Position numbers and translations under genes: made by a program
Source of the DNA: Elusimicrobiota bacterium
GTDB lineage: Bacteria; Elusimicrobiota; Elusimicrobia; 2-02-FULL-39-32
Length of the DNA: 63,125 nucleotides
Direction of reading: 5' to 3'
NCBI GenBank assembly: GCA_021730935.1
Contig: JAKFYJ010000035.1
Location: 1-63,125 of the forward strand
The notes under the pieces: generated by a model
The model's database searches: none
What the model was told of the DNA's origin: nothing
What the model saw: only the letters and a program-made list of their open reading frames with translations
Part shown: positions 8,297-57,689 of the stretch, in pieces
Layout of the letters: the number at the start of each line of letters is the position of its first letter
Position numbering within the stretch: the first letter of the stretch is position 1

Positions 8297-8333
8297 GGAT
8301 GTCGGAATATTCTACAAGAGAAGGCATCTTGGC

Positions 8334-8365
8334 GTCCTAAACTTTTTGTAAACTTTTTGTAACAA
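8334..8365. promoter_or_regulatory. 32-bp direct-repeat promoter element (copy A)
   Basis: Two adjacent 11-bp units AAACTTTTTGT lie at 8339-8349 and 8350-8360 and are followed by AACAA. The whole 32-bp block is identical to 57658-57689. Both copies sit in a divergent intergenic region with a giant gene on the minus side. The 11-bp phasing places the repeats on the same face of the helix, as expected for a protein-binding site. Confidence 0.65.
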
Positions 8366-37740: not shown

Positions 37741-38595
37741 TTATCCTTTCTTTTCCTGGATGAGCTCAACGACAACGCGGCCCACGACTTCGCGGTTCTC
37801 AAGCACGGAGACGCCCTTGGCGGGGACTCCGGCGAGGTTCACGGCGCGGAACGGCGCATTTTTTTTATGAAGGTCTTCAAGCACCTGCCTGAACCTCTCG
37901 AATTTGACGCTAAAATTGGACGGGTTCAGCTCTCCCCAGGCAACCGTGAGGGCGCCGGATTCTCCGGGAACATTTTTGAGTTCCGCCTGCAGGTCATTTT
38001 CGTCATTGACGGAAATCCTGGCGAGGCGCGCATCTCCAAGGCCCAAAGCCCCGGCGGATTTTGCCCAGTTCTCAATGAAGCGGAGCGAGTTTTCGGGGTC
38101 CTGTGATTTGGAAACGGCAAGTTCAGGCAATGTGTCCTGGGCCGTTCCGGGGGCCAGAGGGAAAATTTTTCCGCTGTTGTCGATCCCCAGCATCGCGGAT
38201 TCGGATCGAACCAATGCGACCGGAACTCTCAGCGTATAGGACACGAGCAGGCGGTCCGGCAGGAGGCGGTGAACCGAAATTTCTCCGAGTTCCGGATATT
38301 TTTGTTTCAATCCCGATTCAATTTTGGAGCAGGAGAAGCTGAGCGTGGACCTGCCGGAGAGCGCTTTCATCTCGGCAAGAATCTTCGGCGTCAAATATTC
38401 CTGCGTTTTGATCTCCGTTTTCTTGATCAAAAAAGTGTCTTTCCTGAACATGAAATCGTGGACCGTAAACCCCGTGAAAAGGACGATGCCGGCGGCGGCG
38501 CTGATTTTGAGAGTTTTCATGAAGAACGAAAAATGATTTTTAACGAGTTTCCGGCGGACCTTGCTCCGGAGGACGACGCGCTGGCTTTTTCTCAT
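37741..38595 (-). CDS. ftsQ: Cell division protein FtsQ (POTRA domain)
   Basis: A 284-residue bitopic membrane protein. A basic cytoplasmic tail (RSKVRRKLVKNH) precedes a TM helix near residues 31-50 (ISAAAGIVLFTGFTV). A POTRA domain follows (STLSFSCSKIESGLKQKYPE, VHRLLPDRLLVSYTLRVPVA), then the FtsQ beta-domain. FtsQ links FtsB/FtsL and FtsW/FtsI in the divisome, none of which are in this window. Identification rests on the TM plus POTRA arrangement and on the ddl-ftsQ-ftsA order. Confidence 0.9.
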   Translation of the reverse strand: MRKSQRVVLRSKVRRKLVKNHFSFFMKTLKISAAAGIVLFTGFTVHDFMFRKDTFLIKKTEIKTQEYLTPKILAEMKALSGRSTLSFSCSKIESGLKQKYPELGEISVHRLLPDRLLVSYTLRVPVALVRSESAMLGIDNSGKIFPLAPGTAQDTLPELAVSKSQDPENSLRFIENWAKSAGALGLGDARLARISVNDENDLQAELKNVPGESGALTVAWGELNPSNFSVKFERFRQVLEDLHKKNAPFRAVNLAGVPAKGVSVLENREVVGRVVVELIQEKKG

Positions 38596-40408: not shown

Positions 40409-43400
40409 TTACGCCTGAATCATCAGGACTGCGGTTTCGCGGATGTGTTCCAGGATTTGGAAGGTCATGGGGCGGGCCGCTTCGAAGTTGTCGTTGATGA
40501 GGACGAACGATATTTTTCTCAATATGGAATTTGGGTCCCGTCCATTTAATCCGGAAACATTCATGAGCCGTTGAGGCATGAAAAGGGCCGTGACGCTTGT
40601 CCCCCCGCCGCTTTTTAAAAGATCTTCGAGCACATCAAAATCAACCGATTCCGGCGCGCCCGGCGAAACGCTTTCGAAGAGGTTCTGTTTTATTTCAATC
40701 GATATGTCCGCCGACAGGTTTCGTATGCTCTGAACTTGTTTTTCGGATAATTTGCCTGCCAGGAACCTGACTTTCTTCCCCCTGAGGTTTGAGACGAACC
40801 TTTGCGCGTATGCCGCCGGATCTTTCGCGGAAGGATCAATCACAACGTCGATTTCGGATTTTTCGTCCAGATTCATTTCCGGAACCGCGGTTTCAAGAGG
40901 TTTCATTTTCAGGCTTCTCATGAGCGCCTGCTCCGTCATCCACAGGATCTGCTCTTCAGAATATTTTTTATCCAAAACAACGTCGCGGGCGGAGAGGAAC
41001 CCTTTCAGATCGTCCGTCGTCAGGTTTTTGCCGTTTGTCCCCAAATTCTCCAAATTTAATTTCAGATCAGCCTTCTCGAATATTTGACGGATATCTTCCT
41101 CAAAAGTTTGGTTGGGGTTTCCTTCTGAAACGGACGGGTTGTTGACATGAAAATGCCTCAGCGCCGCAAGAGCGGCAATGCCCAGCGTCCAGGCGCTGGC
41201 GATGCCGAAATGATAGACAAAGAAGGTCGCGATCCCCGTTTCAAGTGTCAGCTCCCACAATCTCCAGGATGTGAACGCGGTGTGCCATTTGCCTTTTCCG
41301 GTGATGAGCGCATGCAGAGTCCAGATTGCGGCGTGCAGGCCCCAGAAGATGCCGACGGCGGCGATGACGGCGCGGGCGGCGTCGGAATAATGCGCGGGCA
41401 GGCCCAGACCCGCAAGGGCAGTGATCAGGAGTTCCGCTCCCAGAGGGGCGAGCCAACGAGTGTAAAATGCGGCCCACGGATGACTGAAGGGCGCCAGCCA
41501 GGAGCCATTGAACGATGGAATATCCATTATGTCATTCGAATGATATTTTTTTAGAATATAAATGATGTCCTGATTGCGGCGTTCAATAGAGTCTGCGGTC
41601 TTGCGGGCAATGTCGCCGGTACGGATATATCCATTGAGATACGTCTTTGAAACAAAAATGAAAATGGATGATCGGGTTCCTTCAAGCGCCACGGACAGTT
41701 GAACGGCGTGCCGGAGGTTAACCGTCTCATCGAGTTTCGCAAGGCCTCCGCGCACTTCCATGAAAGTTGCATCGGTTATTCCACGGGACTTGAATTCGGA
41801 AAAAACCTTCTTGCCTGCGCTTTCGTCTTTGGCGGACAGTCCCAGAGTCCCAAAACCTCTGGACAGTGAGGTCAAGGTCTTATTCAAAATACGGCTTTTT
41901 TCATTTCCTATCGGCACATATTCCCGCAGCATGGACAGGGTGATCGCAAGAACGATGATGGCGATGTTCTGGGATCGCACTGTTTTTTCACGGATGAGGA
42001 GGATATAATCAACGATCGGATTTGTGTAGGTGTTTTCCAGGTGACCTGGAAAATTCAGTTGATCTGCAACCGGATTTTTGCCGTCATAAAGGATATGCAC
42101 GTTTTGAGGATCGAGATTCATGGCTTCATTCAATTCAGGGAAATTGGACTGTGCGTCAGGATCGTGATCGATCCGGATATTGACTTCTCCGTCGAGCCCT
42201 GTCTTGACTCCGTAGATGATGATTGTCTTGCCGAGGTGTCGCACTTCGTAGCAATCGATATTGTTGGCTTGCCGGACGACCCTCCATTCCCCGTCTTCCA
42301 GAATGCCTTTTCTTGCGAGCGTTTTGCGGGCAGAGGCGGCGATCAGTTTGTTTTCGGGATCAAAATATTTCATGACAATTGTTGTGTCCCAGCCCATTTC
42401 TTCAAAAATGGATTTTACGTTTTGAACGATCAGCGCGTGCCAGGGTTTATCCGTTTGATCACTATGGACCCCGGTGTCGGCGTGCGTGAACATTGTCTCG
42501 GAGGTCATGAGAGCGCTTAATTGGTCAAAATAATCATGAATGCTTGCGTCAAGAATTTTAGGGTCCGCCGTCGGGTTTATTTTATCCAGTTCGTGAATCA
42601 GGTCCCCGTAATATTTGCGGACCGGAGAATCGGCGAGATATCCTTCATGGGCTTGCGCTAAAACACTTCGCAGATCTTTCAGCAAGCGTGACACTTTTTC
42701 AGAGTCAGGGAGGTTCGTTTTCTGATTGCTGATATTGACGGTGGGGGGTGGATTGCCGTCAGTTTGCCTTATAAATTCGTTTATGGGCACAATCCCGGAC
42801 TTTACTAATTTGCTGCCCAGCCGCTTGTTGGCTGTCTCGAGTATGGATCGGTACATCATGGCATATGCCGCAGTTTTTCCCAACCAGGAATGAAGCGGTT
42901 CCGTCTCATCAAGTCCCGCCATTGATGATTTCATGTAGTAGAGTGCCTTGTCGACATCATACATGAGCGTCCTCATCCGCTGCATATAACTGATGCAAAC
43001 TTTCGATGTGGCCTTGTCTTTGACTTCAGCAAGTTCAGCCTGGAAATCTCGGACCTGTTTGAACGTCCTGGAAAGACTGGAGAATTCCATAGATTGGGGC
43101 CGGCCTTCGGTTCTCAGTTGAAGCGAAAAATCTTGAGAGATCCAATGCTCGGCTATCCATTTTGTTTCTCTTTGCATGCTATCGATGAAATCGGCGATGT
43201 TCGCTTCCACCACTCTTTTCGCGCGCGGCGATGATGTCTCCGCCATGGTCTTAAAGGAGCTCCTCAGCGGTTCCGCCTTCTTCGCGTCGCGTTCCTCTTT
43301 CGTTTCCAGCCACGCTTTCCACGCTCCGGAATCGGACCCGAGCAGTCTTTTCAGGCGTTCGATCGGGGAATGGTTCACTTTTCTGATGAGCATGTCTCTG

Positions 43401-46400
43401 GACGGGCTGTCGGGGAGATGAAAAACGATGGGCAGGAGGATGTCGGGGTTGACGCGGACGGCTCTTTTGGCGATCAGCGAGAGGAAACTCGCCATCTGCA
43501 CGGTTTTGTCCCTCTGAGACAATTTTTCTTTTTCAGAAGCTTCTGGGCTTAAAACGATAAAGGAAAGGGAGTTAAATTTTTGGCTGTCGAATTCAAGCTC
43601 CTTCTTAAAAGTGATCGTAACGAAGTTTCCGCTATATTCAAACGAGGCAACCTGTCTTACCTGCCGTCTGCACGCAACGAAGGCATTCTCAGAGAACCGT
43701 TCCAGGAGCTGGTCCCGGGAGGTGTCAGAAACAAAGCCCAGGGCGGCAAGCCTGTCGTCGTCTTTGCGGGTCAGGGACACTGGGGTCACATACACTCTGC
43801 TTCCTGAGGCGCGGCGCTTAAACATTTCACGCAGAACCGCGGCGGGGTCTTTGCCGTTAACGACAAACTTTCCGACGGGTTCCGCCTCTTTCGCCGCAGG
43901 AAAGGTTCCGGCATTCGCCAACATCTGTTCTTCCCAGGTTTTTCCCTCGTCGGCGATGAAAAGTTCAATGTCGTCCCGCAGATCAGAGAGGCAGGGGAAC
44001 TTCCTCATCACGGCGGAAACAAGTTCCTTCATGGCCGCGTCCCGGATTTCCTGAGAGTCAGAGTCCAGGGCTGTGTGAAGGACGGCGCCTTGCTCGAACG
44101 CGACATGCCGGACCATTTCGGGCATGAGGTCTTTCTTCGCCTGGTCCAGAGAGGATGCCATGTCTCCGAGCCGCACCGAAGCCTCCACGAGGGCCAGGTC
44201 CAGAGAATCGCTGCGCCCAAACTCCGCGTCACAGCGCGCCATCAGTCCGTTCATGAGCGCGCCCAGGGGGACAGCCGCCGCGCTGAATTCGTCCGCGTTA
44301 TTGCGCGCATGCGCTTCCATGGCCAAGTCCATTCCGCGGGAAATTTCCGCCATCGACGCCGTGATCTCCAGGACAACCGGGTCCGGGCCAAGATCTTCTT
44401 CCTCTTCAAAGAATTCGCTTTCGCGCTCTTCGGCTGGATTAAAATAGGCCTGAATATATTCCTGTGTAAAATCCTCGTGTTTCGAGACGGCGTCATCTTT
44501 GATTTTATCGTACAGCGCCTTCAGATCATTCAGCGTCTGAACGCCCGCGCCGCTTTTCCTCGACTGGATCAGGACACAATAAAGTTTGAACAGGTTATAA
44601 GCGCGCTTTGCGGCGAGAAGGGCTTCCATCGCGCCGTTGTCGACGGACGTCTCTGGAGACAATGTCCTGAGGATTTCATTTGCCGTCAAGACAGCGCGAG
44701 AGTCTCCTGAAAGATCGTTCCTCTCGGCGTGATCAGGAGTTTGCCCATGAACCTTAACTTTCACGGCGATTGCCGCGTCAATCTCCAGCGTGCGCTCAAC
44801 GAATTCCTCTGCCTTTTGGAGGCCCTCTTCTCCCCCGCCGTTTAAATCATAGACCGCGGCCACCAGGGCTTCGTAAATGCTTCCGAGGTCGTGTTGATGA
44901 AGCATCGGTTGATGGGAATTCGAGTATCCATAATGATGGATATCCGCGTTCTCGAGAAGTTTCAGGAGTTTCGCCGCAAGAAACGCATTGCTCCTGAAAG
45001 AGCCGTTCAGGCTTAAATTCGCGATCATTGACAAATTTTTCCTCGTTTTTTTCCAAAGGATTCGATAGAGGACCATGTTCAGGATGGCGTCTCCCATGAC
45101 GGAATATCGCGCGTCGGGACGGATGATGCTCCTCCCCCGATCCCCGGCTTTGACAGCCGGGAAAATTTCTTCAAAAGTTTTCGCTGTCTCCTGTCCCCCC
45201 ATGTCAGCCCCAGCAAGGAGCGCCATGTTCTGCAGTTCGGAGGCGTAATCTGCCGCTCCGGCATTTCTGTCGACATAATTCTTCCGGGCCTGATCCATGT
45301 TGAGATGGTTTAATATTTCTATAAAGCTGGGTTCAAGGAACGATTGGATTTCGGAATATTTTCCTTCCGCCAAAAGGAGCCCGATCAGGACCGTGACTTT
45401 CGCCTGCGCGTCAAGCGGTATCCGGCGGAGGTCATGTTCGGGATATCGGGTGAGAGCCAGAGCCAGCCTTTCTTTCCAAATTTGCTCCATGAAAGATTTG
45501 TCCAATTCCTTCCCGTCCCTGAACAACTCGGGCGGAATGTTCGGCTCAATTTTGGTGGGCTTGCATATTTCGGAAAAATGATGGATCGAGGCGGGGCTTA
45601 AACGGCTGTCGCGGCTGAAGATGAAATCCCTGCTCGCCCAGCGGAAAGCGTTCTGTCCCATCTCGAGGAAAGCCCCGATGTCGGTGCGCGCCTCATAAAT
45701 GTCCGGGGGCCCGGTCCTGTCCAAAATGGAAGCCACTGTCCAGCCTTTCCAGAGCGCGAGGGCGTTCCAGGAGGCGTGGGAGACATAGTTAAGGACCAAC
45801 CCCGAGAGGCCTGAGAGGATGGGGTGGTGGTTGAAAGCTGAAGAAAATGCGAGGGCGGGAGCAACAAATGCGGCTGACAGACCGATGCCGATACCGATCA
45901 AGACCCAAAACCTGGATGTTTGGATCGCTCGAATGGGGTTTTTGAAATGTCTTATGCCGTCTTTGCCTTTGTGGACGCCGCTGAAGACGAAGGAGCTGGC
46001 CACGGCGACTGCAACAACCCAAAGCGCCGGAATGCCCAAAGCAAGAGTAACAAAAACCGGAGCCTGGAAAATCCACTCCCAGGCGCCGGCGCCGAAGATG
46101 GTGTAGCGTTTGTGGAACTGTTCCCCCTTGCTCTTGGACCAGTCGAAAGCGATGGAGGCGAATTCAGAGGTCGGCGTATTCCCCAAATACCTCCGCAGAA
46201 GATTTTCGGCTCTGGCCCTGCGCTTTTTTGCATATTCCGCTGTATATTCTGCGATGTTCCCCGTTTTAACATACGCCGCAATGCACTCCTTGGACACAAT
46301 GATGAGCAAGTTGGGATAATTTTTGCTGAGCGCGGCCTTGACGACCTTGGCGTGGACTCCATTGACCCTCTGATCCCAAAGATCGAGAGCATTCAGAGCG

Positions 46401-49400
46401 CTTTCAATTTCTTCGTCCGTGAGTTTCCTGGTCTGAATTTCCCTGAGAATTCTGACCGCGGCTTCCAGCTCTAAAGGATTAAGTCCCATATGACTCAACA
46501 CGAAAGAGGAAGCTCTGCTTGCCTGTTCAAGGCGATCGCGCTTGAGAGTCAGCAGATCATCAATTTCCAAGCTAGCTGACAGACCCGTCATTAATGTGAT
46601 GAGGGCAAGGTCCTTTAAACTCAATTCCTTGTCTTTGTAATTCTTGGCAAGGATCTCATAGGCTTCTGGAAAGATTTCAATGCCGGATCCCCGACTCATA
46701 TCACTTTCCGGCTCGGGATGTTTCCCAACAAGAAAGATCTGCCAGGACGCAGGGTTTTTCCGCCGATCATGATCCACTGTCCTACTGAATTCTGTAGTTT
46801 CTGAATTAGGCGTCATCAAACGCCGAACTTCCCCGGCGATGCCAGAATCAGTGGCCACAAAAACAGCCCGTTTGCCGTGAGCTGTGACTTCATAATAATC
46901 AATGTCGTTGCCTTGATACTTTATCTTCCAGTCTCCCTCCTCAAACAGCCCTTCATTTTCCAAATGCCGCCGTTCTTCCAAACTTTTTAGGATATGATCA
47001 GGGTCAAAATATTCTTCAACATCAATATTTTTCAGGCCCACCGCCTCAAAAACCTGCCTGGAGGCGGCGATCAGCGGGCGATGCCATGGTTTTTCCTGCT
47101 GAGGAAAACGCGATCCCGCATCAATTTTAAACATGTTCAGCTCGTCAGTGGTCATCTCACTCAATTTGGCGAAGAATATTTTTAGATGCGTTTCGAGGTC
47201 ATTTCCCCTCATCTCTGCAATACCCTCCGCCTCGCGGATCAGTTCTTCGTAATAAATTGCGATGGGAGAATCCGGAAGATAACCCGCTCCGGCTTTTTCC
47301 ATTTCCACTAAAAGACGCTTCATGGATTCAACAACACTGTCGGGGTTATAATCGTCCGGATCCTCATTGATTTGCGCCTTGGTTCCCAGCTGCATGCGGT
47401 CCCCGATTTCACTGTAACTCATCAGACCTGTCATAATCGCCGCTTCGGCCATCTGTTTGTGTGCAGACCGATAAAGAACCCTTTGCAGAAAAATCTTTGA
47501 AGCGATCCATCTCATATCCGAGGGAATCCTCGTCCTCGTGACATTTTCGTCTGAGAGGAGTTCCAGAAGAGCCAGAGACTTTGTGGTTTGGGTCATGATC
47601 TGATAAAGATCATCAAGGAGTGAAAGATAATCATTGACGGGGCGCTCGGGTTTATTTCTCAATTTGTTTATCTTGGCTTTCAATCGGGAAATATCATTGG
47701 CCATGGTCTTCATTGAGGGAAATTTAATATTTGCAGGGCGCAGAATATCCCCAAATATAGTGTTAAGGCGATCTGCTTGTTCCAGACCATCACTGCTCCA
47801 ATGGCTTTCAATTTTTTCAAGCTCCGTCAGAAATGTGTCGAGAAACTGCAGTTTTTGATTCTGTTCCGGCGCAATTGCGCGCTCCCGCTCTTCCGGAGAA
47901 CGGCGGCCCTGCTGAATCCGCCGCGTTTCCTCGAAGTGTTCTTCCTCAGTCATCAGCCATTCCTGCCAGGCAGGGATGTCGACGGCATAAAGCTTTTTCG
48001 TCATGGGATTATTGGACGAAGTCACCTTGTCGATGAGCCGCATTTTGGCGGATGCATTTTGCAGTTTCATTGTCACAGGCAAGTCCGAATTTTCTGCAAC
48101 TCCAATATGTCCCGCGTGAAGCGCCGTCTGGAGAGTCCCGATCAGAGCTGGTTTATTTTTGATATTCATTTGCGCAAAAGCGCTGAGAGAATCGATTAAT
48201 TTGCCTAATTTATCAGAATTATCCCTGGTAAATCTCAAATCGAAATTCAGCACGCTGAAAACATGATTCTCAAATTGAATCGGGCTGGTGAGCGTGACCC
48301 GAATTTGATTATTGTCCGATTGAACTGCCCGAATCATGCTGGGATTTTTTTTGGCGTCAATCAGGTAATCGCTGGCGACATTATTAAACGTCCCAAGGCG
48401 TTCGGCGCGGGAAGTTTCAGGTGAAAAACCGAGATCGGACAACTGTTTTTCCTGATCGAATGTAACGGCTGTCGGCCTCAAAAGCTTTCGACTGCCGAGG
48501 GAGCGGCGGTTAAACAAGCCGCGCAGAGCCCAAACGGGGTCGCGTCCATTCAAGTCTGTTTTTCGATCATTGGTCGACGCCACTGTCCAGCCTTTCCAGA
48601 GCGCGAGGGCGTTCCACAAAGCATGCAGACTGATGTTCAGGAGCGCACCGCTGAGGATGGCGTTTGCCCAGCCCGGAACATGGCCCGCATAAGGCAAGGA
48701 ATGGATGAAGGACAGGTGAGGGATTCCGGCAAGATATAAAACGAACGGCGTCCAGAGCGCGAGAGTCAAAATGAATCCGATCCGGCGGAGGACGGCATGT
48801 TGATATTCATGATCCACAAAATGCGCGCGGCTGAATTTATGGGAACTTCGGAGAGCCCAATAGGCGATGAGAGGAACGGCTCCAATCAAAAAGCTGACGG
48901 GATATGGAACACGCGCGCCGGCGACCCAAAATATGAGGGCGATGTTGGTCGCGAGGACGGGATAAAAAATCAAGATCCATTTGGTTCGGTCGCTCCACCG
49001 ATAGTCCGGCGAGTTTTTGGGATGATAAACGGAGAAAATGATTTCCCTGGCCGGAACCCAAAGCACGGTATAGAGCCTATAGGCAAACCATTCCCGCAGA
49101 GTTTGATGCTCTTTGTCGTCTTCGTTCCATCTGTCCCGGGCCTGGAGGTCGCGCACGGAGGCAAGAGGCCGCTGATATCCGCTCTGCATTTTAACGAAAT
49201 CAAGCACTTCATCGTCGGGAACACCGCCCCTGATCTTTGCGGCGGCCTGGGCTGCAAGAGCGTTGACCGCTTCGCGTTTCAACGGGCTTCCGGAAAGGGT
49301 TTCTTTGATATCCATCGCCAGGGGAAGGCCGCGGCCTGCGTTTGAAATTGCAGGAGCGAGGATAAAAGCGATGCCGGAATGTTGCTGCCTGGGCGAATGA

Positions 49401-52400
49401 AGCAGGGCTGTGACGATTTTCAGCCTCGACTGGTTCAGGAATTCGCTCAGAGGGAAAATGTCCGTTAATCGGGAGAAATCTCTGACATATTTCCCGTCGG
49501 CGCCGGGCCTGTCAGAATTTGGATGTGCCAGGCTGTTCAATTTTTCAGCCAGTTCAAGACCGAGTTGATCGTCCCCCAGATCCATGCGGTATCGATCCTT
49601 CATGAAACCTTTGACTTCATTCGCGCCTTTGAAAAAGTCCCGCGTCATGGCCGCAAAGTTGACCGCCCAGTGAAACGGATTGTCAGCCGCCGTCCTTTCA
49701 TCGGCTGTTCCGGGGTCTGCGGGCTTGTCGGAATCGTCCAGCGTTTTCTGATCAATGGGGTCCCTGGCCCACTCTTTGCGGAACAGGCTTTTGGCTTTGC
49801 CGAGGTTTTCTTTGTCCTCTGGCTTTCCTGATTTTGCGGCTTTGAGGGCGGCGAGATAAAATTGTTTGCGCGAGTCCGGATCGATTTCCGATGCCAGGGT
49901 CAGAGCCCGTTCCGCGAGGTCAAAGTCCCGGGTTTCGGCGGCCAGTTCCCCGGCTGTCAGAAGCAGTTCGCCCAGAACACGGGGATTTTCCCTGATCTCC
50001 GCGCGGCCGCGGTTCTGTCCGATATGTTCAATCGCCCATTTGAGGCTCGCCCGGAGTTCCGTGGCATTTTGAGGGGTTTCCGGGATGCCCTCTGTGATCT
50101 TCGCCCAGTATAAAAAGAGCCAGAGTCTTTCGGCCGCGATCTTCAAACCGTCCGTCGTTTTTGCTGTTTCCCTTGCGCCGATCAGGGCGCGTAAAGTTTG
50201 CATGGACATCACATCGGCCGATCCTCCGGGTTCGAGAGGATTGTTGATCTGAGCCAAGATGCGGGAGGCGATCGGGAAATTCGAGCTGTAATACGCGCTC
50301 CATCCCAAATGGATGACCATCTCCACATTCTGTTTCGGCGTGATCTGCAGACGCACCAGGTCACGCATCCATTTGTTTGCTTGCGCGAACTCATGGAGGT
50401 CCCAGATCAGGATGTGAATAAGTTTCAAAATGTTCCGTGCCTCCATCTCGTCCAGGGCCTCATCGATTTCTTTCTTCAATTCGGGATCATCTTCATCGAC
50501 ATTGGCTCGATCTCTGCGCACCATATCAATAACTTCCTGGCATACCTGGCAGGCGTTTTGGAGCCTGAGGGGGTCGCTGAGCCGGCGGAGTTTCGTATCG
50601 AACAGGAGTTCAAAAAAATGATCTTTATTGCTGTATATGAGGGTGCTGTATTTGACGTACTTTCGGGCCTGTTCCAGATGTTTGTCAGCCGCGTCGACAT
50701 CTCCGGTTTCGTCAATGAGAGCATGGGCCAGCTGGACGGAGGCGCGCACATAATAGTTGATCACTTTTTCGTCGATGACAGTGAGCTCCTGTCCCAGACG
50801 GTTGTTGACTTTCTTCAAATGATCATAGGCTTTTTGCCTCGAAGCCATAAAGGCGCGGAGGGTTTGTTCGAGAATTTTCCCTCTTTCTTCCACGCGGGCG
50901 GCATCCGTGTTTTTCAGGAGCCCTTCATAAGATTCCGCCTGGAGGAAATATAACATCGGCAGCAAAGCCGGGGCGCCGGCCTGATTTCTGATCCCGTCAT
51001 CCTCAGGCGCGGGACGGGCTGAATTTAACTTTTCGATGAATGACTGGATGAGCTCGACGGATTCTCTGTATCTCCCCACTTTCCGATAGATGTCCGCGAG
51101 ACTGTATGCCGCCAGGATCCTGTCGTGCCACGAGAACGGCGGTTCGATCAGTTTTTGATAGATCGGAATTGATGCTATATAATTTTCTTTGTCTCTATAG
51201 TCATCCGCTGTTTGCAGCAGAATAGCAGGGTCACTCGATGTTGAAATATCGATGGACGCTGCCGTCCCCCCTCTCCAGAGGGCGAGGGCGTTATGTATGG
51301 AATGCGCCAGGAAGGTATATTGGAACCCCGCCGACCAGGCCTCGATGGGGTTTCGGGCAAGGCCAAAATGGAAACCGCTTCCGGGCCAGGCATAGGCCAG
51401 AGGCATGTGGATGCCGAGGGAAAATAAAAGAGCAGGAGCCAGCAACGCTCCCGCCAATCCCAAGCCGACAAAATACAAATGCTTTGCCTCTTGGGGAGTT
51501 TTTCCCTTGTGAGCGCCGCTGAAACGATAGGCGCTCTTGTGAGCCATCCAGACGGAGACGGGGATCATCGCAGCGGCATAAACCGGGAAAAACGACTGTG
51601 CGAGAGCGAAAGCGAGGACGGGAGCCTGATAAACGGCTTCCCAGTTGACGCCGACGGTGGTATAAAAGCGATACATAAATTTCTGCCATTGGGTCTGATT
51701 GGGATCGCCTTCTTTGTAACGAGCGCGGGCAGAGGTGTTCTTGGTGGAGGCGGTGGGAGCGGACAAGGTCCTGGGTTGGGAGCGGGACTCGAGCAGTGTT
51801 TTGAGCCGAGCGCTGAGGATGTCTTTGCTCGCCTGGGAACTTGCCTCCTGAATCTGATGAAACAAGTTTTCCGCATATACCATGTCTGTTTCTGTAAAAT
51901 ATATCGGCAGATTCTTGTTCGAGGCTTGTTTTCTCAACTCCTGGATTGAAGCGTTTCTTATCTGACGGATCCTGGCTTCGGTCACATTCAGAGGACCGGA
52001 AATTTGTCTCATCGTCTCCTCATCTTTTACTCCATGTCTCCCAAAGTTTAGGCGGAGGATCAGGGCGGAGCGCAAAGGGAGGTGGGTCAGCATTTTGGCG
52101 ACCGTCGATTCGTTCACCGTCTGAGCGTATGCATCCTGCACGCCGTCCGGGTCGTGCGCTATTGTTTCTGCAAGCAGGCTCCCTTCTTCGTGCGCTTTTG
52201 AGCCGGGCAAAGGCTTTTCCAACGAAACCACAGAAGCGGCTCCGTTTGCGAGGATGTCTTGAACCTCTGCGGCATCCATAGCGGTCCACTTCGCAATTTC
52301 GCTTAGAGTGGGCACTCGTCCGAGCTCCTCTTCCAGAAAGGCTATTACCCTCTTGATATTGCCATGAAGAGCTCCGAAATGTTTTGGGACGTGGATGACG

Positions 52401-55400
52401 CCTTGAAAAACATTTTGGATGTGGTTTTCATGTTGGATTGCGTGCATCACATAGGTGGACCATTTGCTTTTTGAAGGATCAAAGCGTTTGATCCTGCTTC
52501 CGACCGTAATACTCAGTTCCTGGAGGATTTCCTCCAAATCTGAGGATGGGTGTCTGCTCTTGTGCTTCAGGGCTTGCTTATGAACAAGGTTCTGGACTGC
52601 CGCGAGGCCGATTTCCCATATCAATGTCGGGTCTGCTCCCTCGTCCCGAGCCTGAGCCCAAAAGATTTCATCTGCCTTCTTAAACCCTTTTCCCGGATGT
52701 TGATAGAGATATTCCAAAATCATGCGGAGTTTACGGTCCGTTTCTTCCTGGCGGGCCTTCAAGACTTTTGGAGGATCAAAGGTCAAAAGCGCCGCGAAGG
52801 AGAGAGTTCCAAGGCCCCAGGCCTGAAGATCGGGGGCGAAACAATGGAGGGTCAACAATATCAAAGCGGGCAGGAAAGCCGGGGCAATGCGGCGTACATA
52901 TTTCATCACTTCCGGCATCGAATCTTCGTTCATGCCGAGATCGTACATTACAGTCCCGATTATATGCGAAATTGTTCCTGATTCCTCATACCCGAGCATG
53001 GCATGTCTGACCGCCGACGCCGCAACTTCCGGCAGGCTGACAAGAGCGGTGTCATCGGTCAATCCGAAATGCGTCAGAGCAAAGGACATGTCGTCCCGGC
53101 GTTCCTTCCGCGTAATAGGTTTTCTCCGCTTTTCAAAGGCGCCCAGGTCCGCGACGGATTCAACTTTGCCTGAGGGATAGAGGATCCAATTTTCAAGGTG
53201 TCCGTCGTTTCCCCGTTCGGTCACGGCCCGGTATCCCATGCGGTGAACGCGGACGAGGAACCCGATCACGGCGGCGGCGGCCTCTCGAAAACGATTCAAT
53301 CCTTCCGGAGTGGCGGCGTCTCTCGCGAGGCGTTCAACATCATGAGCCAGCCGTCTGCCGTCCCGATATTCAAACGCGACAATCCTGAGCGGGTTTTTCG
53401 CGCTGAAAGACAGGGTCCCGCGGCCTGCCCCATAAAAATGAAAATCGCCGCTCCATCCCATCATGAAAAGAGGTTTGACGATTCCGGGATTTTCGGGAGA
53501 TTGTTTCCACAATTTTCGGCTGAGCGTGAAGTGGACGGGCCGGATCTCGTCGCGGTCTTTTTCTTCCCCCGGCATTTTTATTTGGATCGCGAACCTTGAC
53601 CCGTCGGCGTTGTCGGCATAAAGGATGTGCCGCCGGAACGATTGGCTCACGGGGACGAGGTTCAGCTCTCTCAGGCGATAAACCGCCTCTTCGCGCTGGG
53701 ACCACTCAATGGGCCCGAATTTGGAGCGGTTGGAAAGGTGATAAGGGTGAGCGATCCTCAGGGCGCTCAAAACCGTGAGGAACCTGGCTGACCGGGCGGG
53801 GTCGGACAACACGCTTGAGAGCGTCGGCATTTTTTTCCGCAAAAGAGATTCAGCCCCTTCCATCCATCGTCTGCTTCTGGGCAGGGGAACCGGCGGGTTT
53901 TCCTCAAACGCCTTGGATTCGAAAACAAATTGTTCGATCATGCGCTCCGCTCCCGGAATATGCGCGGCCTGGAGTTTTTGGGCGGTGAATAAGAGCGCCC
54001 GAAGAACTGTTCTGGACGACGATCCGCATTCTCCGCTCATCAATCGTTCGTGCAATTCTCCGCTTACACCCAGAAGGACGAGTTTGGCCGCATTGACCGT
54101 GTCGGGATCGGAACATTGGGCCATGCGCAAAATAAGGCTGAGGCTTGCTTCCTGAACCTGCGGGCGTGAACTGTCCAGCGCAAACCCTAAAAGGGATCGA
54201 AGATATCCGCGAAAATAAGCGGCCATATGACCTGTTTCGTTGATTTTTTTCAAATCGTTCCCGGTTTTCCCAGAATCCTGAAGGGCGGTGTCATATCCCT
54301 CAAGGTCATGCTCGACCAACATCAGGGCCTTCGGCAGAAAAGGGTCGTCCGGGTTCTGGATCAGGGAATTCAACTCCGGGAGAATATGAATTGCGGATCC
54401 GCTCCTGAGGTTCAAATCGCTGATGAGGATGTCCACAGCGCGGCTTTTTAGATTTGCATCCGCCCACGGCGCTCGAATTATTTCCAGACACGAATCAAGG
54501 ATTCTGAACATACACTCTGATCTAATGCGTTTCACAGATTTGAGGTTAACTTGGGAAGATAAGTGTTTAAAGCCGGTGAACGCTTCATCCAGGGATTTAA
54601 AGTTCATATTTAATCTCTTGGAAAGCAGGATGCGGATTCTGTCTTCAAAAAGTTCCCCAAGGTCCGAATATTCGCCGGCAAGAGCTCCGAGGAGTGTGTG
54701 GTCATCGTCCAAAAAGAGAGTGAGCGGGATGTTCGGGGCCTTCAGTTCATTAAGGACATAGGCGTCTTGTTCCTGCTTCAGGGCCGCGCGGAAGAGGCGA
54801 TGCGCTTCCGCCTTGGCGGCAGGATCGTTTGCGTTCAGCCAGATATGGGAAGCCAACATGAAGGCCTCGATCCGCGTGATGGGGTTGCTCGATGAAAAAT
54901 ATTTTCCAAGCATCGGAATCACATCGACCGTATCGACCACCGATTGAAGTTCACTTTTTCCGTTTCCGGAGAACCGCTCAGGGAAAAGCATTTCCTGCAG
55001 GGCTTCGGTGTCGTTCAGGTTTTCTGTTCTGGACGCTTCCTTGAACTGGCTCAGGATGATCGGCATACAGGCCTTGAGCAGGACTTCCGAAAGATATTTA
55101 TGATACGGGTGACGCGGGTCTAAAAAATCATCTGCGATGGAAACTGAACGGACGTTGTCATAGATCAGGTATCCATAAGGATACAATCCAGGCCTGATTT
55201 TCTTTTCCTTGATCATCGCTTCAATCGCATTGAGGATGTTTGTCAGAAATACGAAATCGATCCTGTCTTTCGGCCAGTCCAAGTTTGTCTCAGCCCTGTC
55301 TCTCAAGTCCTGCACTGCCTGGAGCAAAAGCGGCGTTTGAGGATCAGAATTTGTCCCAGACCCGGCGTCCGTCACGCTCTCTGAAAAAAACAGGTTTGAG

Positions 55401-57601
55401 AAACGGGTTTTCAGGGTTTCCATCGGATGCGCCGCGGGACGGGTTCCGGCAAGCGCCGGGAGAGGGGAAGAGGGATGGAAATGGATGAAAGTTGAGATGA
55501 GAAGGACAAGCGATGCCAGAGCGAGCCCGGCAGGGACGGAGACGGCATAACTTGCGGCGGCGCCCAGGACGAGAGCGGTTCCGGCTGTTTTGAACAGCAC
55601 GGCGGCATCGGAGGAATCTTGTCCAAGGGAGATGTCTGAGACGGATGCGATCGCGGGATATCTTTCGTCTCGATTCTTTTCTCCAAAACGGACCGCGCAT
55701 TTCACCAGATATTCGGGGCCGCTGACGACGAGGTTCACGGCGGACGCCTTTATTTCTTCGAAGGTTAATTTATAATTCGCTCCAGGAGGTCCGGCCAAAA
55801 ATTGAAAAGCGGCCTGCGCGCCCTGCGGGTCTCCCAAAGCCAGCAGAGAACTCACCAAGCTCGCGAACATCAGGTGGAGGCGGTTGGACCAGGTGATTTG
55901 GGAGACGAACAATTTGTCGCCGTCGAACAATTTTTCCAGAGGCGATTTTTCCTGCGTGAAGACCGACAAATATTCCGTGCCGGACTTGCCGTTGATCTTC
56001 GTGATTTTGGGGGCAAGGGTGATGACGGCGGTTTTGTTTTTGGCGAGGATTTTTGTGATGCCTTCCGTGTGATATCCTCCGGTCACGAGGACGGAAATTC
56101 GGGATTTGTGTTCTTTGACTTGTGTGAGGATGTTTGCGCTTATGGCTTGGTCGCGGAGGGCGGCATGTTCGAAGAAGGATTCGAAGGAAGATAGGCTGTT
56201 CACCTCACCCCCCTCATTTGAGCCCTCTCCACTTCGTGGAGAGGGTGCGGGTGAGGCTTGATATTCCCGCCATTCATCCGGCGTTAGAGCGAAATCAACA
56301 AGTTTTTGCGTGAGGTGCAGGCGGCTGGACTGGGCAATGAGATCTTTTTCGGCGGGGGTCTTGAGCAGTTTTTCATAGGTTCTGTCTTCGAGAGATTTCA
56401 TTTCTTCCAGGAGTTTCTCGGCTTTGATTTGGTCGGAGAGAAGGACATATTGGATATAGGACTGCATGGCGGGATAATTTTGGAAATGGATCCCTTCCTT
56501 TTCGCAAAGTGTTTTCAGATAAACATAAAAATCGGTGTGGCGGACGCGGCCAAGTCGATAGGACAAGCTGGTGTTCAGGAGGCCGGACATTTGGGGTTGG
56601 GTGAGTTCTCGGGAGAGTTTGAGGATCAGGGCTCCGCGTTCTTTTTCGACTTGCGCGAAATCGAGGGATTTTTCCATGGCGAGGGCGCGGAGGAAGACTG
56701 AAATCATTTCCTCTCCTCGCAGGCTCGGGGCGATGGCCTTCACATATTCCCCCACGGGCAGGGTCCCTTTGCGATAGGCCTGAACTTGATGGTCAAAGGA
56801 GAGGAGATTCGGATTAAAGGTTTTGTCTTTGTCCTGCTCGAGGCGGGATTCCTGGGCGGCGAGGTCTTTCTTGAGCGTCTCAACTTTGCCGGCGGACTCT
56901 TTGTAGGCCCCGACATGTCCGTCATAAAGTTTGCGGTCGTCCACTCCAACGAATGAGGGGATCGGTTTTGCGCTTGAGAAAGCGGCATGGATGGCGCCGG
57001 AGATTTTGTTTTCGCGGAGCATATAATCAGCGGCTTGATGCACTGCGTCCGGGTCCTTGAAAGAACGGAACCGCGAAAGATCGATCGGCTCAAACGCGCC
57101 TTCGAGCGCGACCATGTCGGCATTTCCCTGATCGATCAACTGCTGGATGGATTTGCCTATGTTTTCCTGGGCTTCCTGGTTCATGTGGACATCCTGAATA
57201 TAGACCACGAGGCCGTCGGAAGGTTTCCATTTTGTCGGGAAAAGGGAGGATTTTATGTTGGCATAGGCCAGAGGCAGTTTCAGGTTCTGGACGGGCAGTT
57301 TGGGCGAGAGAGAAATGAGCGAATTTTCGAGAGGGGCCGATGCCGGAATCGTTTCCGGCCGTATGCGCGGCAACATGTTTTGGTCAACGGCCGGCAATTG
57401 GGCCATTAAGGGCGATTCATGAATCGCCCTGATGTCCCCCGCAGAGGATTCCAAACGCTGTGCGGCTTTTTTTCGTTCGGTCCAGAAGTCTTTGAGAGGT
57501 TCTGCGGCGGCTGAAACAATGTTGACGTGCAGGAACGCGGCGAGAGTGGCAAGCGCCGTGATTCGGGTCCAGGTCCAGGGATGTTTTCTTGCGGGTTCTA
57601 T
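40409..57601 (-). CDS. Giant exported multidomain protein 2 (about 5,730 residues)
   Basis: An open frame of 5,730 codons if translation starts at ATA 57601. A TTG start at 57454 gives 5,681 residues but cuts off a full signal peptide (WTRITALATLAAFLHVNIVS). Domains, numbered from ATA: TraB/ChaN-like, shared with giant 1, 131-567 (YIQDVHMN, VALEGAFE, VTGGYH); TM 671-711; helical repeats 758-1294; kinase-like 1401-1508 (HLENWIL, VADLGAF); TM 1568-1604; sigma-70-like 1628-1894; CPBP-like TM modules near 1975-2114, 2841-3008 and 3838-3953, and a degenerate one near 5376-5484; TPR-like 2121-2624; RNase III-like 4121-4274; two copies of a long repeat at 3013-3834 and 4578-5368, each opening with NG.DP. 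It ends soon after a third NGRDP. An AGGGGGG site lies 9 bases before the ATA. The cellular role is unknown. Confidence 0.85.
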   Translation of the reverse strand: MEPARKHPWTWTRITALATLAAFLHVNIVSAAAEPLKDFWTERKKAAQRLESSAGDIRAIHESPLMAQLPAVDQNMLPRIRPETIPASAPLENSLISLSPKLPVQNLKLPLAYANIKSSLFPTKWKPSDGLVVYIQDVHMNQEAQENIGKSIQQLIDQGNADMVALEGAFEPIDLSRFRSFKDPDAVHQAADYMLRENKISGAIHAAFSSAKPIPSFVGVDDRKLYDGHVGAYKESAGKVETLKKDLAAQESRLEQDKDKTFNPNLLSFDHQVQAYRKGTLPVGEYVKAIAPSLRGEEMISVFLRALAMEKSLDFAQVEKERGALILKLSRELTQPQMSGLLNTSLSYRLGRVRHTDFYVYLKTLCEKEGIHFQNYPAMQSYIQYVLLSDQIKAEKLLEEMKSLEDRTYEKLLKTPAEKDLIAQSSRLHLTQKLVDFALTPDEWREYQASPAPSPRSGEGSNEGGEVNSLSSFESFFEHAALRDQAISANILTQVKEHKSRISVLVTGGYHTEGITKILAKNKTAVITLAPKITKINGKSGTEYLSVFTQEKSPLEKLFDGDKLFVSQITWSNRLHLMFASLVSSLLALGDPQGAQAAFQFLAGPPGANYKLTFEEIKASAVNLVVSGPEYLVKCAVRFGEKNRDERYPAIASVSDISLGQDSSDAAVLFKTAGTALVLGAAASYAVSVPAGLALASLVLLISTFIHFHPSSPLPALAGTRPAAHPMETLKTRFSNLFFSESVTDAGSGTNSDPQTPLLLQAVQDLRDRAETNLDWPKDRIDFVFLTNILNAIEAMIKEKKIRPGLYPYGYLIYDNVRSVSIADDFLDPRHPYHKYLSEVLLKACMPIILSQFKEASRTENLNDTEALQEMLFPERFSGNGKSELQSVVDTVDVIPMLGKYFSSSNPITRIEAFMLASHIWLNANDPAAKAEAHRLFRAALKQEQDAYVLNELKAPNIPLTLFLDDDHTLLGALAGEYSDLGELFEDRIRILLSKRLNMNFKSLDEAFTGFKHLSSQVNLKSVKRIRSECMFRILDSCLEIIRAPWADANLKSRAVDILISDLNLRSGSAIHILPELNSLIQNPDDPFLPKALMLVEHDLEGYDTALQDSGKTGNDLKKINETGHMAAYFRGYLRSLLGFALDSSRPQVQEASLSLILRMAQCSDPDTVNAAKLVLLGVSGELHERLMSGECGSSSRTVLRALLFTAQKLQAAHIPGAERMIEQFVFESKAFEENPPVPLPRSRRWMEGAESLLRKKMPTLSSVLSDPARSARFLTVLSALRIAHPYHLSNRSKFGPIEWSQREEAVYRLRELNLVPVSQSFRRHILYADNADGSRFAIQIKMPGEEKDRDEIRPVHFTLSRKLWKQSPENPGIVKPLFMMGWSGDFHFYGAGRGTLSFSAKNPLRIVAFEYRDGRRLAHDVERLARDAATPEGLNRFREAAAAVIGFLVRVHRMGYRAVTERGNDGHLENWILYPSGKVESVADLGAFEKRRKPITRKERRDDMSFALTHFGLTDDTALVSLPEVAASAVRHAMLGYEESGTISHIIGTVMYDLGMNEDSMPEVMKYVRRIAPAFLPALILLTLHCFAPDLQAWGLGTLSFAALLTFDPPKVLKARQEETDRKLRMILEYLYQHPGKGFKKADEIFWAQARDEGADPTLIWEIGLAAVQNLVHKQALKHKSRHPSSDLEEILQELSITVGSRIKRFDPSKSKWSTYVMHAIQHENHIQNVFQGVIHVPKHFGALHGNIKRVIAFLEEELGRVPTLSEIAKWTAMDAAEVQDILANGAASVVSLEKPLPGSKAHEEGSLLAETIAHDPDGVQDAYAQTVNESTVAKMLTHLPLRSALILRLNFGRHGVKDEETMRQISGPLNVTEARIRQIRNASIQELRKQASNKNLPIYFTETDMVYAENLFHQIQEASSQASKDILSARLKTLLESRSQPRTLSAPTASTKNTSARARYKEGDPNQTQWQKFMYRFYTTVGVNWEAVYQAPVLAFALAQSFFPVYAAAMIPVSVWMAHKSAYRFSGAHKGKTPQEAKHLYFVGLGLAGALLAPALLFSLGIHMPLAYAWPGSGFHFGLARNPIEAWSAGFQYTFLAHSIHNALALWRGGTAASIDISTSSDPAILLQTADDYRDKENYIASIPIYQKLIEPPFSWHDRILAAYSLADIYRKVGRYRESVELIQSFIEKLNSARPAPEDDGIRNQAGAPALLPMLYFLQAESYEGLLKNTDAARVEERGKILEQTLRAFMASRQKAYDHLKKVNNRLGQELTVIDEKVINYYVRASVQLAHALIDETGDVDAADKHLEQARKYVKYSTLIYSNKDHFFELLFDTKLRRLSDPLRLQNACQVCQEVIDMVRRDRANVDEDDPELKKEIDEALDEMEARNILKLIHILIWDLHEFAQANKWMRDLVRLQITPKQNVEMVIHLGWSAYYSSNFPIASRILAQINNPLEPGGSADVMSMQTLRALIGARETAKTTDGLKIAAERLWLFLYWAKITEGIPETPQNATELRASLKWAIEHIGQNRGRAEIRENPRVLGELLLTAGELAAETRDFDLAERALTLASEIDPDSRKQFYLAALKAAKSGKPEDKENLGKAKSLFRKEWARDPIDQKTLDDSDKPADPGTADERTAADNPFHWAVNFAAMTRDFFKGANEVKGFMKDRYRMDLGDDQLGLELAEKLNSLAHPNSDRPGADGKYVRDFSRLTDIFPLSEFLNQSRLKIVTALLHSPRQQHSGIAFILAPAISNAGRGLPLAMDIKETLSGSPLKREAVNALAAQAAAKIRGGVPDDEVLDFVKMQSGYQRPLASVRDLQARDRWNEDDKEHQTLREWFAYRLYTVLWVPAREIIFSVYHPKNSPDYRWSDRTKWILIFYPVLATNIALIFWVAGARVPYPVSFLIGAVPLIAYWALRSSHKFSRAHFVDHEYQHAVLRRIGFILTLALWTPFVLYLAGIPHLSFIHSLPYAGHVPGWANAILSGALLNISLHALWNALALWKGWTVASTNDRKTDLNGRDPVWALRGLFNRRSLGSRKLLRPTAVTFDQEKQLSDLGFSPETSRAERLGTFNNVASDYLIDAKKNPSMIRAVQSDNNQIRVTLTSPIQFENHVFSVLNFDLRFTRDNSDKLGKLIDSLSAFAQMNIKNKPALIGTLQTALHAGHIGVAENSDLPVTMKLQNASAKMRLIDKVTSSNNPMTKKLYAVDIPAWQEWLMTEEEHFEETRRIQQGRRSPEERERAIAPEQNQKLQFLDTFLTELEKIESHWSSDGLEQADRLNTIFGDILRPANIKFPSMKTMANDISRLKAKINKLRNKPERPVNDYLSLLDDLYQIMTQTTKSLALLELLSDENVTRTRIPSDMRWIASKIFLQRVLYRSAHKQMAEAAIMTGLMSYSEIGDRMQLGTKAQINEDPDDYNPDSVVESMKRLLVEMEKAGAGYLPDSPIAIYYEELIREAEGIAEMRGNDLETHLKIFFAKLSEMTTDELNMFKIDAGSRFPQQEKPWHRPLIAASRQVFEAVGLKNIDVEEYFDPDHILKSLEERRHLENEGLFEEGDWKIKYQGNDIDYYEVTAHGKRAVFVATDSGIAGEVRRLMTPNSETTEFSRTVDHDRRKNPASWQIFLVGKHPEPESDMSRGSGIEIFPEAYEILAKNYKDKELSLKDLALITLMTGLSASLEIDDLLTLKRDRLEQASRASSFVLSHMGLNPLELEAAVRILREIQTRKLTDEEIESALNALDLWDQRVNGVHAKVVKAALSKNYPNLLIIVSKECIAAYVKTGNIAEYTAEYAKKRRARAENLLRRYLGNTPTSEFASIAFDWSKSKGEQFHKRYTIFGAGAWEWIFQAPVFVTLALGIPALWVVAVAVASSFVFSGVHKGKDGIRHFKNPIRAIQTSRFWVLIGIGIGLSAAFVAPALAFSSAFNHHPILSGLSGLVLNYVSHASWNALALWKGWTVASILDRTGPPDIYEARTDIGAFLEMGQNAFRWASRDFIFSRDSRLSPASIHHFSEICKPTKIEPNIPPELFRDGKELDKSFMEQIWKERLALALTRYPEHDLRRIPLDAQAKVTVLIGLLLAEGKYSEIQSFLEPSFIEILNHLNMDQARKNYVDRNAGAADYASELQNMALLAGADMGGQETAKTFEEIFPAVKAGDRGRSIIRPDARYSVMGDAILNMVLYRILWKKTRKNLSMIANLSLNGSFRSNAFLAAKLLKLLENADIHHYGYSNSHQPMLHQHDLGSIYEALVAAVYDLNGGGEEGLQKAEEFVERTLEIDAAIAVKVKVHGQTPDHAERNDLSGDSRAVLTANEILRTLSPETSVDNGAMEALLAAKRAYNLFKLYCVLIQSRKSGAGVQTLNDLKALYDKIKDDAVSKHEDFTQEYIQAYFNPAEERESEFFEEEEDLGPDPVVLEITASMAEISRGMDLAMEAHARNNADEFSAAAVPLGALMNGLMARCDAEFGRSDSLDLALVEASVRLGDMASSLDQAKKDLMPEMVRHVAFEQGAVLHTALDSDSQEIRDAAMKELVSAVMRKFPCLSDLRDDIELFIADEGKTWEEQMLANAGTFPAAKEAEPVGKFVVNGKDPAAVLREMFKRRASGSRVYVTPVSLTRKDDDRLAALGFVSDTSRDQLLERFSENAFVACRRQVRQVASFEYSGNFVTITFKKELEFDSQKFNSLSFIVLSPEASEKEKLSQRDKTVQMASFLSLIAKRAVRVNPDILLPIVFHLPDSPSRDMLIRKVNHSPIERLKRLLGSDSGAWKAWLETKEERDAKKAEPLRSSFKTMAETSSPRAKRVVEANIADFIDSMQRETKWIAEHWISQDFSLQLRTEGRPQSMEFSSLSRTFKQVRDFQAELAEVKDKATSKVCISYMQRMRTLMYDVDKALYYMKSSMAGLDETEPLHSWLGKTAAYAMMYRSILETANKRLGSKLVKSGIVPINEFIRQTDGNPPPTVNISNQKTNLPDSEKVSRLLKDLRSVLAQAHEGYLADSPVRKYYGDLIHELDKINPTADPKILDASIHDYFDQLSALMTSETMFTHADTGVHSDQTDKPWHALIVQNVKSIFEEMGWDTTIVMKYFDPENKLIAASARKTLARKGILEDGEWRVVRQANNIDCYEVRHLGKTIIIYGVKTGLDGEVNIRIDHDPDAQSNFPELNEAMNLDPQNVHILYDGKNPVADQLNFPGHLENTYTNPIVDYILLIREKTVRSQNIAIIVLAITLSMLREYVPIGNEKSRILNKTLTSLSRGFGTLGLSAKDESAGKKVFSEFKSRGITDATFMEVRGGLAKLDETVNLRHAVQLSVALEGTRSSIFIFVSKTYLNGYIRTGDIARKTADSIERRNQDIIYILKKYHSNDIMDIPSFNGSWLAPFSHPWAAFYTRWLAPLGAELLITALAGLGLPAHYSDAARAVIAAVGIFWGLHAAIWTLHALITGKGKWHTAFTSWRLWELTLETGIATFFVYHFGIASAWTLGIAALAALRHFHVNNPSVSEGNPNQTFEEDIRQIFEKADLKLNLENLGTNGKNLTTDDLKGFLSARDVVLDKKYSEEQILWMTEQALMRSLKMKPLETAVPEMNLDEKSEIDVVIDPSAKDPAAYAQRFVSNLRGKKVRFLAGKLSEKQVQSIRNLSADISIEIKQNLFESVSPGAPESVDFDVLEDLLKSGGGTSVTALFMPQRLMNVSGLNGRDPNSILRKISFVLINDNFEAARPMTFQILEHIRETAVLMIQA
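44780..45240 (-). other. RNase III-like domain inside giant protein 2
   Basis: The pattern R..VMGDAILNMVLYRIL (family LEFLGDAVL) and SIYEALVAAVYDLNGG (family DxxEALIGA.YLDGG), followed by AEEFVERTL, marks an RNase III fold. The Asp of GDA and the Glu of YEAL are kept; the preceding Glu (family LEFLGD) and the Asp three before YEAL are not obvious (Ser here), so catalysis is doubtful. No dsRNA-binding domain follows. Confidence 0.65.
45745..46100 (-). other. CPBP-like intramembrane protease module 3 in giant protein 2
   Basis: WEWIFQ, FSGVHKGK and HASWNALALWKGWTVAS. Modules 1 and 3 share FSG.HKGK, modules 2 and 3 share HA.WNALALWKGWTVAS, indicating internal duplication. Confidence 0.5.
48580..49080 (-). 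other. CPBP-like intramembrane protease module 2 in giant protein 2
   Basis: REIIFS, FSRAHF and HALWNALALWKGW, again in the Rce1/CPBP order with four to six hydrophobic helices. The module ends with TVAS, as in module 3 and (TAAS) module 1. Confidence 0.5.
51260..51690 (-). other. CPBP-like intramembrane protease module 1 in giant protein 2
   Basis: WEAVYQ, then FSGAH about 40 residues later, then HSIHNAL about 70 residues further. This matches the Rce1/CPBP order E..xxR, FxxxH, HxxxN, with hydrophobic helices in between. The Arg of the first motif is Gln here. Confidence 0.5.
51920..52720 (-). other. Sigma-70-like domain inside giant protein 2
   Basis: The encoded segment follows sigma-70 regions 2 to 4: FDPSKSKWSTYVMHAIQHEN (region 2, FDP..G..FSTY..W.I), GVIHVPKHF, then EEELGRVPTLSEIAKW (region 3) with SLEKPLPG, and LPLRSALILRLNFGRHG...MRQISGPLNVTEARIRQIRNAS (region 4, HTH for the -35 box). 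The order and spacing match sigma factors. Region 1.1 is absent. Confidence 0.75.
56203..56256. repeat. Palindromic (REP-like) insertion within the coding sequence
   Basis: The outer arms CCTCACCC...GGGTGAGG and a perfect inner hairpin CCCTCTCCAC...GTGGAGAGGG (56223-56245) form a typical intergenic repeat, yet the element lies in frame inside giant 2. It encodes SPRSGEGSNEGGEV, which is absent from the equivalent position in giant 1. Confidence 0.7.
57409..57430. repeat. 22-bp palindrome inside giant 2
   Basis: A perfect palindrome whose 18-bp core GGCGATTCATGAATCGCC equals that at 8734-8751. It is read in frame as AIHESP within DIRAIHESPLMAQ, an insertion not present in giant 1. Confidence 0.75.
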
Positions 57602-57657
57602 GACGGCGTTCCCCCCTAAAATATGATGATTAAATTGTATCAGGACGGCCTCAATTT

Positions 57658-57689
57658 GTCCTAAACTTTTTGTAAACTTTTTGTAACAA
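57658..57689. promoter_or_regulatory. 32-bp direct-repeat promoter element (copy B)
   Basis: Identical over 32 bp to 8334-8365: two adjacent AAACTTTTTGT units (57663-57673, 57674-57684) followed by AACAA. It lies between giant 2 (minus) and bioA (plus), and TTGTAA just after it forms the bioA -35 box. Confidence 0.65.

Follow-up and report, generated by a model that had tools for sequence, protein, structure and literature searches.

A giant Elusimicrobiota gene with a TIKI-like head and a mosaic tail: a candidate membrane-tethered scaffold

What kind of protein is encoded by a single frame of some 17 kb that opens with a signal peptide and then strings together sigma factor-, RNase III-, kinase- and protease-like modules? 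The original prediction, made on the window analysed here (a whole stretch of DNA of 63,125 nucleotides), proposed either a self-processing polyprotein or a surface protein for predation or attachment. The reading that we favour, with a probability of about one half on the basis of sequence comparisons and structure models, is that this gene, G1, encodes a polytopic inner-membrane mosaic, a member of a family of Elusimicrobiota giants, and that this protein acts as a regulatory and enzymatic scaffold tethered to the membrane.

40409..57601, minus strand: giant ORF G1, 5,730 amino acids plus stop, with a probable ATA start at 57601

From 57601 to 40412 on the minus strand, the frame runs through 5,730 codons without a stop and is closed by a single one; from stop to stop it measures 5,769. 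The GC content at codon positions 1, 2 and 3 is about 0.57, 0.40 and 0.60 in 19 of 19 bins and matches that of the neighbouring genes. This uniformity indicates that G1 is coding along its whole length, and the single open frame of about 17.2 kb noted originally is thus confirmed. The source is a draft genome of 2.71 Mb (95% complete, 96 contigs, the window being contig 10), probably a metagenome bin, and such an origin could be taken to favour an assembly artefact or a wrong frame. Against this stand the 17 kb without a stop, the uniform codon-position bias and the recurrence of a head-plus-long-tail architecture in many independent genomes, which together make an artefact a negligible prospect.

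57634..57662, minus strand: promoter-like AGGACA-17-TACAAT, with TG before the -10 and 9 of 12 consensus matches

The earliest in-frame ATG, GTG or TTG of G1 lies at 57454, downstream of 57601, where an ATA is preceded by a run of G (GGGGGG) and by a TACAAT that resembles a -10 box. From this context we infer that the ATA is the probable start codon. Of note, the paralogues C58 and C40 have ATC at the equivalent position, after a G-rich stretch (L009 near 5496; L014 near 3040), and several other paralogues have ATG there. Judging from these sequences, it is possible that one branch of the family (G1, C58 and C40) uses rare start codons. As for the promoter-like sequence, the main argument is its position, because about 10 sites of this quality are expected by the scan in every 18 kb.

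At its other end, G1 stops 54 bp before murB. The genes murB, ddl, an unassigned ORF, ftsA and ftsZ follow on the same strand (35370-40354), so that the giant heads a division cluster. On the upstream side (59112-61756 and 61799-63121) are two adjacent GGDEF diguanylate cyclases and, at the contig end, an XisF/Ccr-like serine recombinase.

57503..57601, minus strand: signal-peptide-like segment, residues 1-33, with an n-region, a hydrophobic core and VSA|AAE, common to paralogues
55892..57502, minus strand: TIKI/EreA-ChaN-like head, residues 34-570, with D137, H139, E167 and H511 kept in every resolved family row
1889..8311, minus strand: second head-bearing giant G2, 2,141 amino acids from stop to stop

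The N-terminal 570 or so residues of G1, namely the signal-peptide-like start that had been predicted and the domain that follows it, define a phylum-wide family. In this head, Q136, D137, H139, E167 and the GGxH motif (508-511) are invariant in every resolved alignment row, and D137, H139, E167 and H511 are identical across 13 of 13 such rows. They reproduce the 2His/2Glu active site of TIKI proteins as D137-x-H139, E167 and a distal H511, with Asp in place of the first Glu. H139 and E167 are 28 residues apart, exactly as are the catalytic His and Glu of RRSP (3902/3930) and Bcr135 (85/113) (PMC6254334). In Pfam, the heads gave weak ChaN and TraB/PrgY/GumN matches, and Foldseek with the head model ranked Bcr135 first and third, EreC second and fifth, HopBA1 fourth and ChaN tenth, all weakly (E 0.09-1.1); a search of the PDB with the head profile found nothing relevant. 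Each of these lines of evidence (active-site spacing, Pfam, Foldseek) is weak alone, and together they point to membership of the TIKI/EreA-ChaN-like superfamily. Between G1 and C58, the dN/dS ratio of the head is 0.19, with dS near saturation.

There are about 15 head-bearing paralogues in the source genome, several of them in ORFs cut by contig ends, and they amount to 52,085 amino acids, about 156 kb or 5.8% of the genome. Their heads are conserved and their tails mostly unrelated, a pattern of constant N-terminus with swapped C-termini; the sole overlap of the G1 tail with these paralogues is one membrane module, in C58. In the phylum as a whole, the head was matched in 62 of 295 genomes, in ORFs of up to 11,814 amino acids and often with dozens of first-look candidates per genome. 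Among the genomes listed, no head was recovered from f10 and f14, two well-sampled families within the class. The original prediction had looked to Omnitrophota, and this link does not hold, the organism being an Elusimicrobiota. Of the 518 head-related stretches in GTDB contigs, all 79 listed as best named loci are titled Elusimicrobia or Candidatus Obscuribacterium, and five genomes of the same class are identical in every base to named Elusimicrobia contigs. An Omnitrophota origin was rejected on these grounds.

57660..57686, minus strand: operator-like element of 11-bp repeats, TTACAAAAAGTTTACAAAAAGTTTAGG, upstream of G1
8336..8362, minus strand: identical operator-like element in front of G2

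The two giants of the window are preceded by the same element. Within the window, the motif TTACAAAAANTTTACAAAAAGTTTAGG matches at two positions only, immediately in front of G2 and of G1, with 0 expected in shuffles; across the genome it has 25 sites and its reversed control has 0. It was also found in five other genomes of the same family, where several sites precede heads. Furthermore, the element lies upstream of NHL-repeat-like, PorV-like and M23-like exported proteins and of three response regulators (L240-L250, named by eye). As it also precedes such apparently exported proteins and regulators, it seems to mark a wider envelope-type regulon. In C8, C12 and C14 (L237, L238 and L239), an ORF of 251-305 amino acids with the motif '[FG]LNNGFT' is located between element and head, and genome G001 has similar small ORFs; from its placement, the small ORF is a putative companion gene.

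53861..55459, minus strand: region of unknown function, residues 715-1247, without family match, helix-rich by eye only
52907..53860, minus strand: protein-kinase-like module, residues 1248-1565, with the K, D, N and DxG positions kept
51902..52600, minus strand: sigma-70 regions 2-4, residues 1668-1900, with the promoter-melting WW replaced by HA
49802..51244, minus strand: TPR-like region, residues 2120-2600 (TPR_8, E=2e-4, below the gathering cut-off)
46088..48553, minus strand: internal repeat unit A, residues 3017-3838, whose end is TIKI-like but degenerate
44849..45109, minus strand: RNase III-like fold that has S in place of both E41 and D114 and is probably inactive
41468..43861, minus strand: internal repeat unit B, residues 4581-5378 (3253-3592 versus 4805-5140, E=2e-33)

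Behind the head, the unusual mix of modules that had been described is real. The AF2 model of the kinase-like module (pLDDT 83) matches protein kinases in Foldseek with E=5e-5 and a probability of 1.00, and the Lys, catalytic Asp, Asn and DxG Asp are all present, which substantiates the predicted kinase and suggests that it is probably active. Six further genomes of the class carry relatives of the module. The idea that all modules of G1 are dead enzymes was rejected for the kinase, given its intact catalytic residues, and likewise for many tails of relatives.

The predicted sigma factor was also recovered. Regions 2, 3 and 4 are present in order, with E=2e-19 to TIGR02997 and E=7e-15 to SigA structures, and the sequence makes the sigma-70 identity of the module certain. 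However, the tandem Trp of region 2 is missing, the ATWWIR of canonical factors being aligned with VMHAIQ in G1. A close kinship with the genome's own sigma factors was considered and discarded, as identity to them is 24-25% and the best relatives reach about 26-32%.

The RNase III module fared less well. A faint fold is there: the stretch has a Pfam match at E=0.03, ranks second after the true rnc in a genome search (E=0.0015) and aligns by hhalign with E=2e-4 and a probability of 45%, and phmmer against the PDB gave no match. RNase III binds its metals through E41, D45, D114 and E117 (E. coli numbering), of which only the equivalents of D45 and E117 are present in G1; genuine relatives have D or N at position 114. 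With two of the four ligands gone, the module is probably inactive, as far as its residues tell. Finally, a unit of about 800 residues is duplicated within G1 (about 3017-3877 and 4581-5423), as detected by self-BLAST in chunks of 400 amino acids; the whole-chain run gave no off-diagonal matches. The end of unit A aligns with the second TIKI-like domain of a head-bearing protein of genome G021, where GKGH corresponds to SKEC in G1.

The tails of the relatives differ from one another. Those of the source genome contain a phosphoribosyltransferase with TPR, a response-regulator receiver with CPBP, PP2C, CPBP, two GT2 glycosyltransferases and PMT_2, and an outer-membrane efflux protein; the key residues of the enzymes printed, read by eye, are intact. 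In genome G022, an ORF of 10,270 amino acids joins the head to AAA_12, M20, RecJ (DHH, DHHA1 and OB), PEP-utilizers, LMW phosphatase, PPDK_N and a cation-efflux domain, and the motifs inspected by eye are again intact. A possible further member, an ORF of 13,472 amino acids in genome G008, carries three ABC1 kinase stretches, M48 and LysM. PPDK_N recurs in the giants of several genomes, beside a stand-alone PPDK.

As for RecJ, RecJ_OB was found once in G022, in the 10,270-residue ORF, and once in genome G028, in an ORF of 5,397 amino acids at whose start no head was recognised. The only RecJ found in these genomes (100% and 96% complete, respectively) is thus embedded in a giant, with all RecJ motifs intact. 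In same-family genomes, RecJ_OB is mostly found in ORFs of 738-793 amino acids. A search of several further genomes of the class found no RecJ_OB, which implies that not every member of the class needs RecJ. The two giants, which come from different families, have CPBP, RecJ, a further module and a C-terminal domain in identical order; this conserved C-terminal domain, common to both (L192/L193, L206), has about 350 residues.

It could be argued that such chains accrete by drift, growing by fusion of neighbouring genes, with the head alone under selection and the tails decaying. The loss of key residues from the RNase III, sigma and second TIKI-like modules of G1 would agree with this. So would the search of 98 related genomes, in which the full tail has no orthologue: the module order that had been expected to recur elsewhere was found in none of them, and the modules themselves recur in different combinations. 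Yet catalytic motifs are intact in many tails and in the G1 kinase, the order of tail modules is conserved between two families, and frames stay open over 10,000 codons, and we consider drift distinctly unlikely as an overall explanation.

55484..55606, minus strand: hydrophobic segment(s), residues 666-706, one or two TM helices
52784..52888, minus strand: probable TM hairpin, residues 1572-1606, flanked on both outer sides by K/R-rich sequence
51251..51679, minus strand: CPBP-like membrane module 1, residues 1975-2117
48563..49069, minus strand: CPBP-like membrane module 2, residues 2845-3013
45716..46090, minus strand: CPBP-like membrane module 3, residues 3838-3962
41153..41455, minus strand: fourth membrane region, residues 5383-5483

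Where, then, would the modules reside? The charges next to the TM segments give an indication only, since the flanks were chosen by hand. Nine soluble modules of six proteins were used, with 15-residue windows on 16 such flanks defined by hydropathy, and there are 38 K+R on the module side versus 10 on the opposite side (sign-flip P=0.003); two flanks, after sigma and after RecJ, show the reverse direction. C3, with one TM segment after its head and then a GT2 domain with positive flanks, has a clean pattern. Taken together with the dependence of several modules on ATP or nucleotide sugars, the flank charges make the cytoplasm the better place for the tails. From sequence, it looks as if the head alone is exported and the soluble modules are cytoplasmic. 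The notion of an exported chain would accordingly hold for the head and is doubtful for the rest.

This bears on the proposal that the chain is exported to the cell surface and serves attachment or predation. The signal peptide and the co-regulation with exported proteins would be in line with it, and giant ORFs of Omnitrophota have been linked to adhesion and predation (PMC10066038). Nevertheless, the domain search found no adhesion domains in G1, its membrane modules are many, the kinase needs ATP, and the GT2, PP2C, receiver, RecJ and PPDK domains of its relatives use cytoplasmic substrates, as the flank charges would also have it. We therefore did not retain this role, which seems very unlikely.

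The predicted membrane proteases are partly there. Three CPBP-like modules retain FxxxH and HxxxN, but EExxxR has lost its first Glu and its Arg, the motif being WExxxQ in modules 1 and 3 and a variant in module 2, and PF02517 has no match in G1 at E<=1. The WExxxQxP signature is also present in C58 and in the giants of other genomes, and the modules thus form a conserved subfamily. A giant frame of the same genus (G002:C51, L194) has a helicase-like module followed by a WExxxQ CPBP-like module, and a 2,394-residue ORF cut by the contig end (G000:C21, L187) has two CPBP domains with intact EExxFR. Many WExxxQ modules end in G-x-[PT]-[VLA]-A-[SN] after the last helix, a sequence that would fit a signal-peptidase-like cut site.

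It is tempting to speculate that the chains are translated whole and then cut into working enzymes by membrane or cytoplasmic proteases. The embedding of the only RecJ of G022 and G028 suggests as much, as does the lack of an in-frame ATG, GTG or TTG at the expected RecJ start within the G022 giant. Protease families recur in the tails (CPBP with intact EExxFR in C39, C44 and C21; M48; M20), and CPBP-like modules often terminate in [VLA]AS-like motifs. However, a tethered RecJ could function uncut, and the altered EExxxR weakens the case for self-processing by the membrane modules of G1 itself. The polyprotein that was originally envisaged thus draws on the RecJ-bearing relatives more than on G1, and we hold it to be a tentative, rather unlikely reading. 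That certain housekeeping enzymes of Elusimicrobiota, for instance the only RecJ, are confined to giant membrane polyproteins, from which membrane-embedded proteases release them in working form, as a co-regulated gene family, is a somewhat more doubtful proposition still. If true, such an arrangement would be a bacterial counterpart of viral polyproteins.

In the tethered scaffold that we prefer, the Sec machinery would export the head, which would work as, or derive from, a periplasm-facing hydrolase. The membrane modules would thread the chain through the membrane and the soluble modules would hang in the cytoplasm. The chain would act uncleaved, as a scaffold with regulatory and enzymatic functions that is produced alongside envelope proteins, and the sigma and RNase III-like modules of G1 might serve in binding rather than catalysis. 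Giant bacterial genes have hitherto usually been counted rather than explained. The head domain, the DNA element and the recurring membrane module provide a common handle to recognise, group and test the giants of the phylum. Enzyme modules with intact motifs, among them the only RecJ found in two genomes, occur in chains of 5,000-10,000 residues. They call into question the view that bacteria make their housekeeping enzymes as separate proteins, and they raise the testable question of whether such enzymes are tethered or cut free.

A literature search with preprints outside its scope found no published account of the head that the giants have in common, of the repeat element or of housekeeping enzymes embedded in such chains. 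The giant architecture would be categorically new as a kind, its function being proposed from sequence. Fused multi-enzyme proteins such as PKS/NRPS and AROM also carry many catalytic domains in one chain, but in the giants the domains belong to no single pathway and have membrane modules between them. In Elusimicrobiota, proteins of over 5,000 amino acids are known to be abundant (Amaral and Devos 2024, PMC11573180); in the accessible parts of that study, these 'huge proteins' are counted, with no COG assignable, and their head, regulation and architecture are not described. Like the G1 family, the giant ORFs of Omnitrophota, such as the 39,678-residue one of V. archaeovorus, come from uncultured bacteria, are very long and have TM helices but few recognised domains. 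Roles as coat, adhesins or in polysaccharide degradation are proposed for them, and the accessible text does not report a TIKI head, a common element or housekeeping enzymes (PMC10066038). With the TIKI/EreA-ChaN-like proteins RRSP, Bcr135, HopBA1 and ChaN (PMC6254334), the giants have in common the His-Glu spacing of 28, the GGxH second His and a weak fold match. They differ from them in the Asp that replaces the first Glu, in a helical insertion of about 270 residues between the parts of the motif and in being fused to tails that are thousands of residues long. Polymorphic toxin systems, as far as the accessible text describes them (PMC3482391), similarly combine a conserved N-terminus with variable C-terminal parts. 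Such systems have a short C-terminal toxin domain with an immunity gene next to it. The tails of the giants extend over thousands of residues and contain membrane modules and metabolic or repair enzymes.
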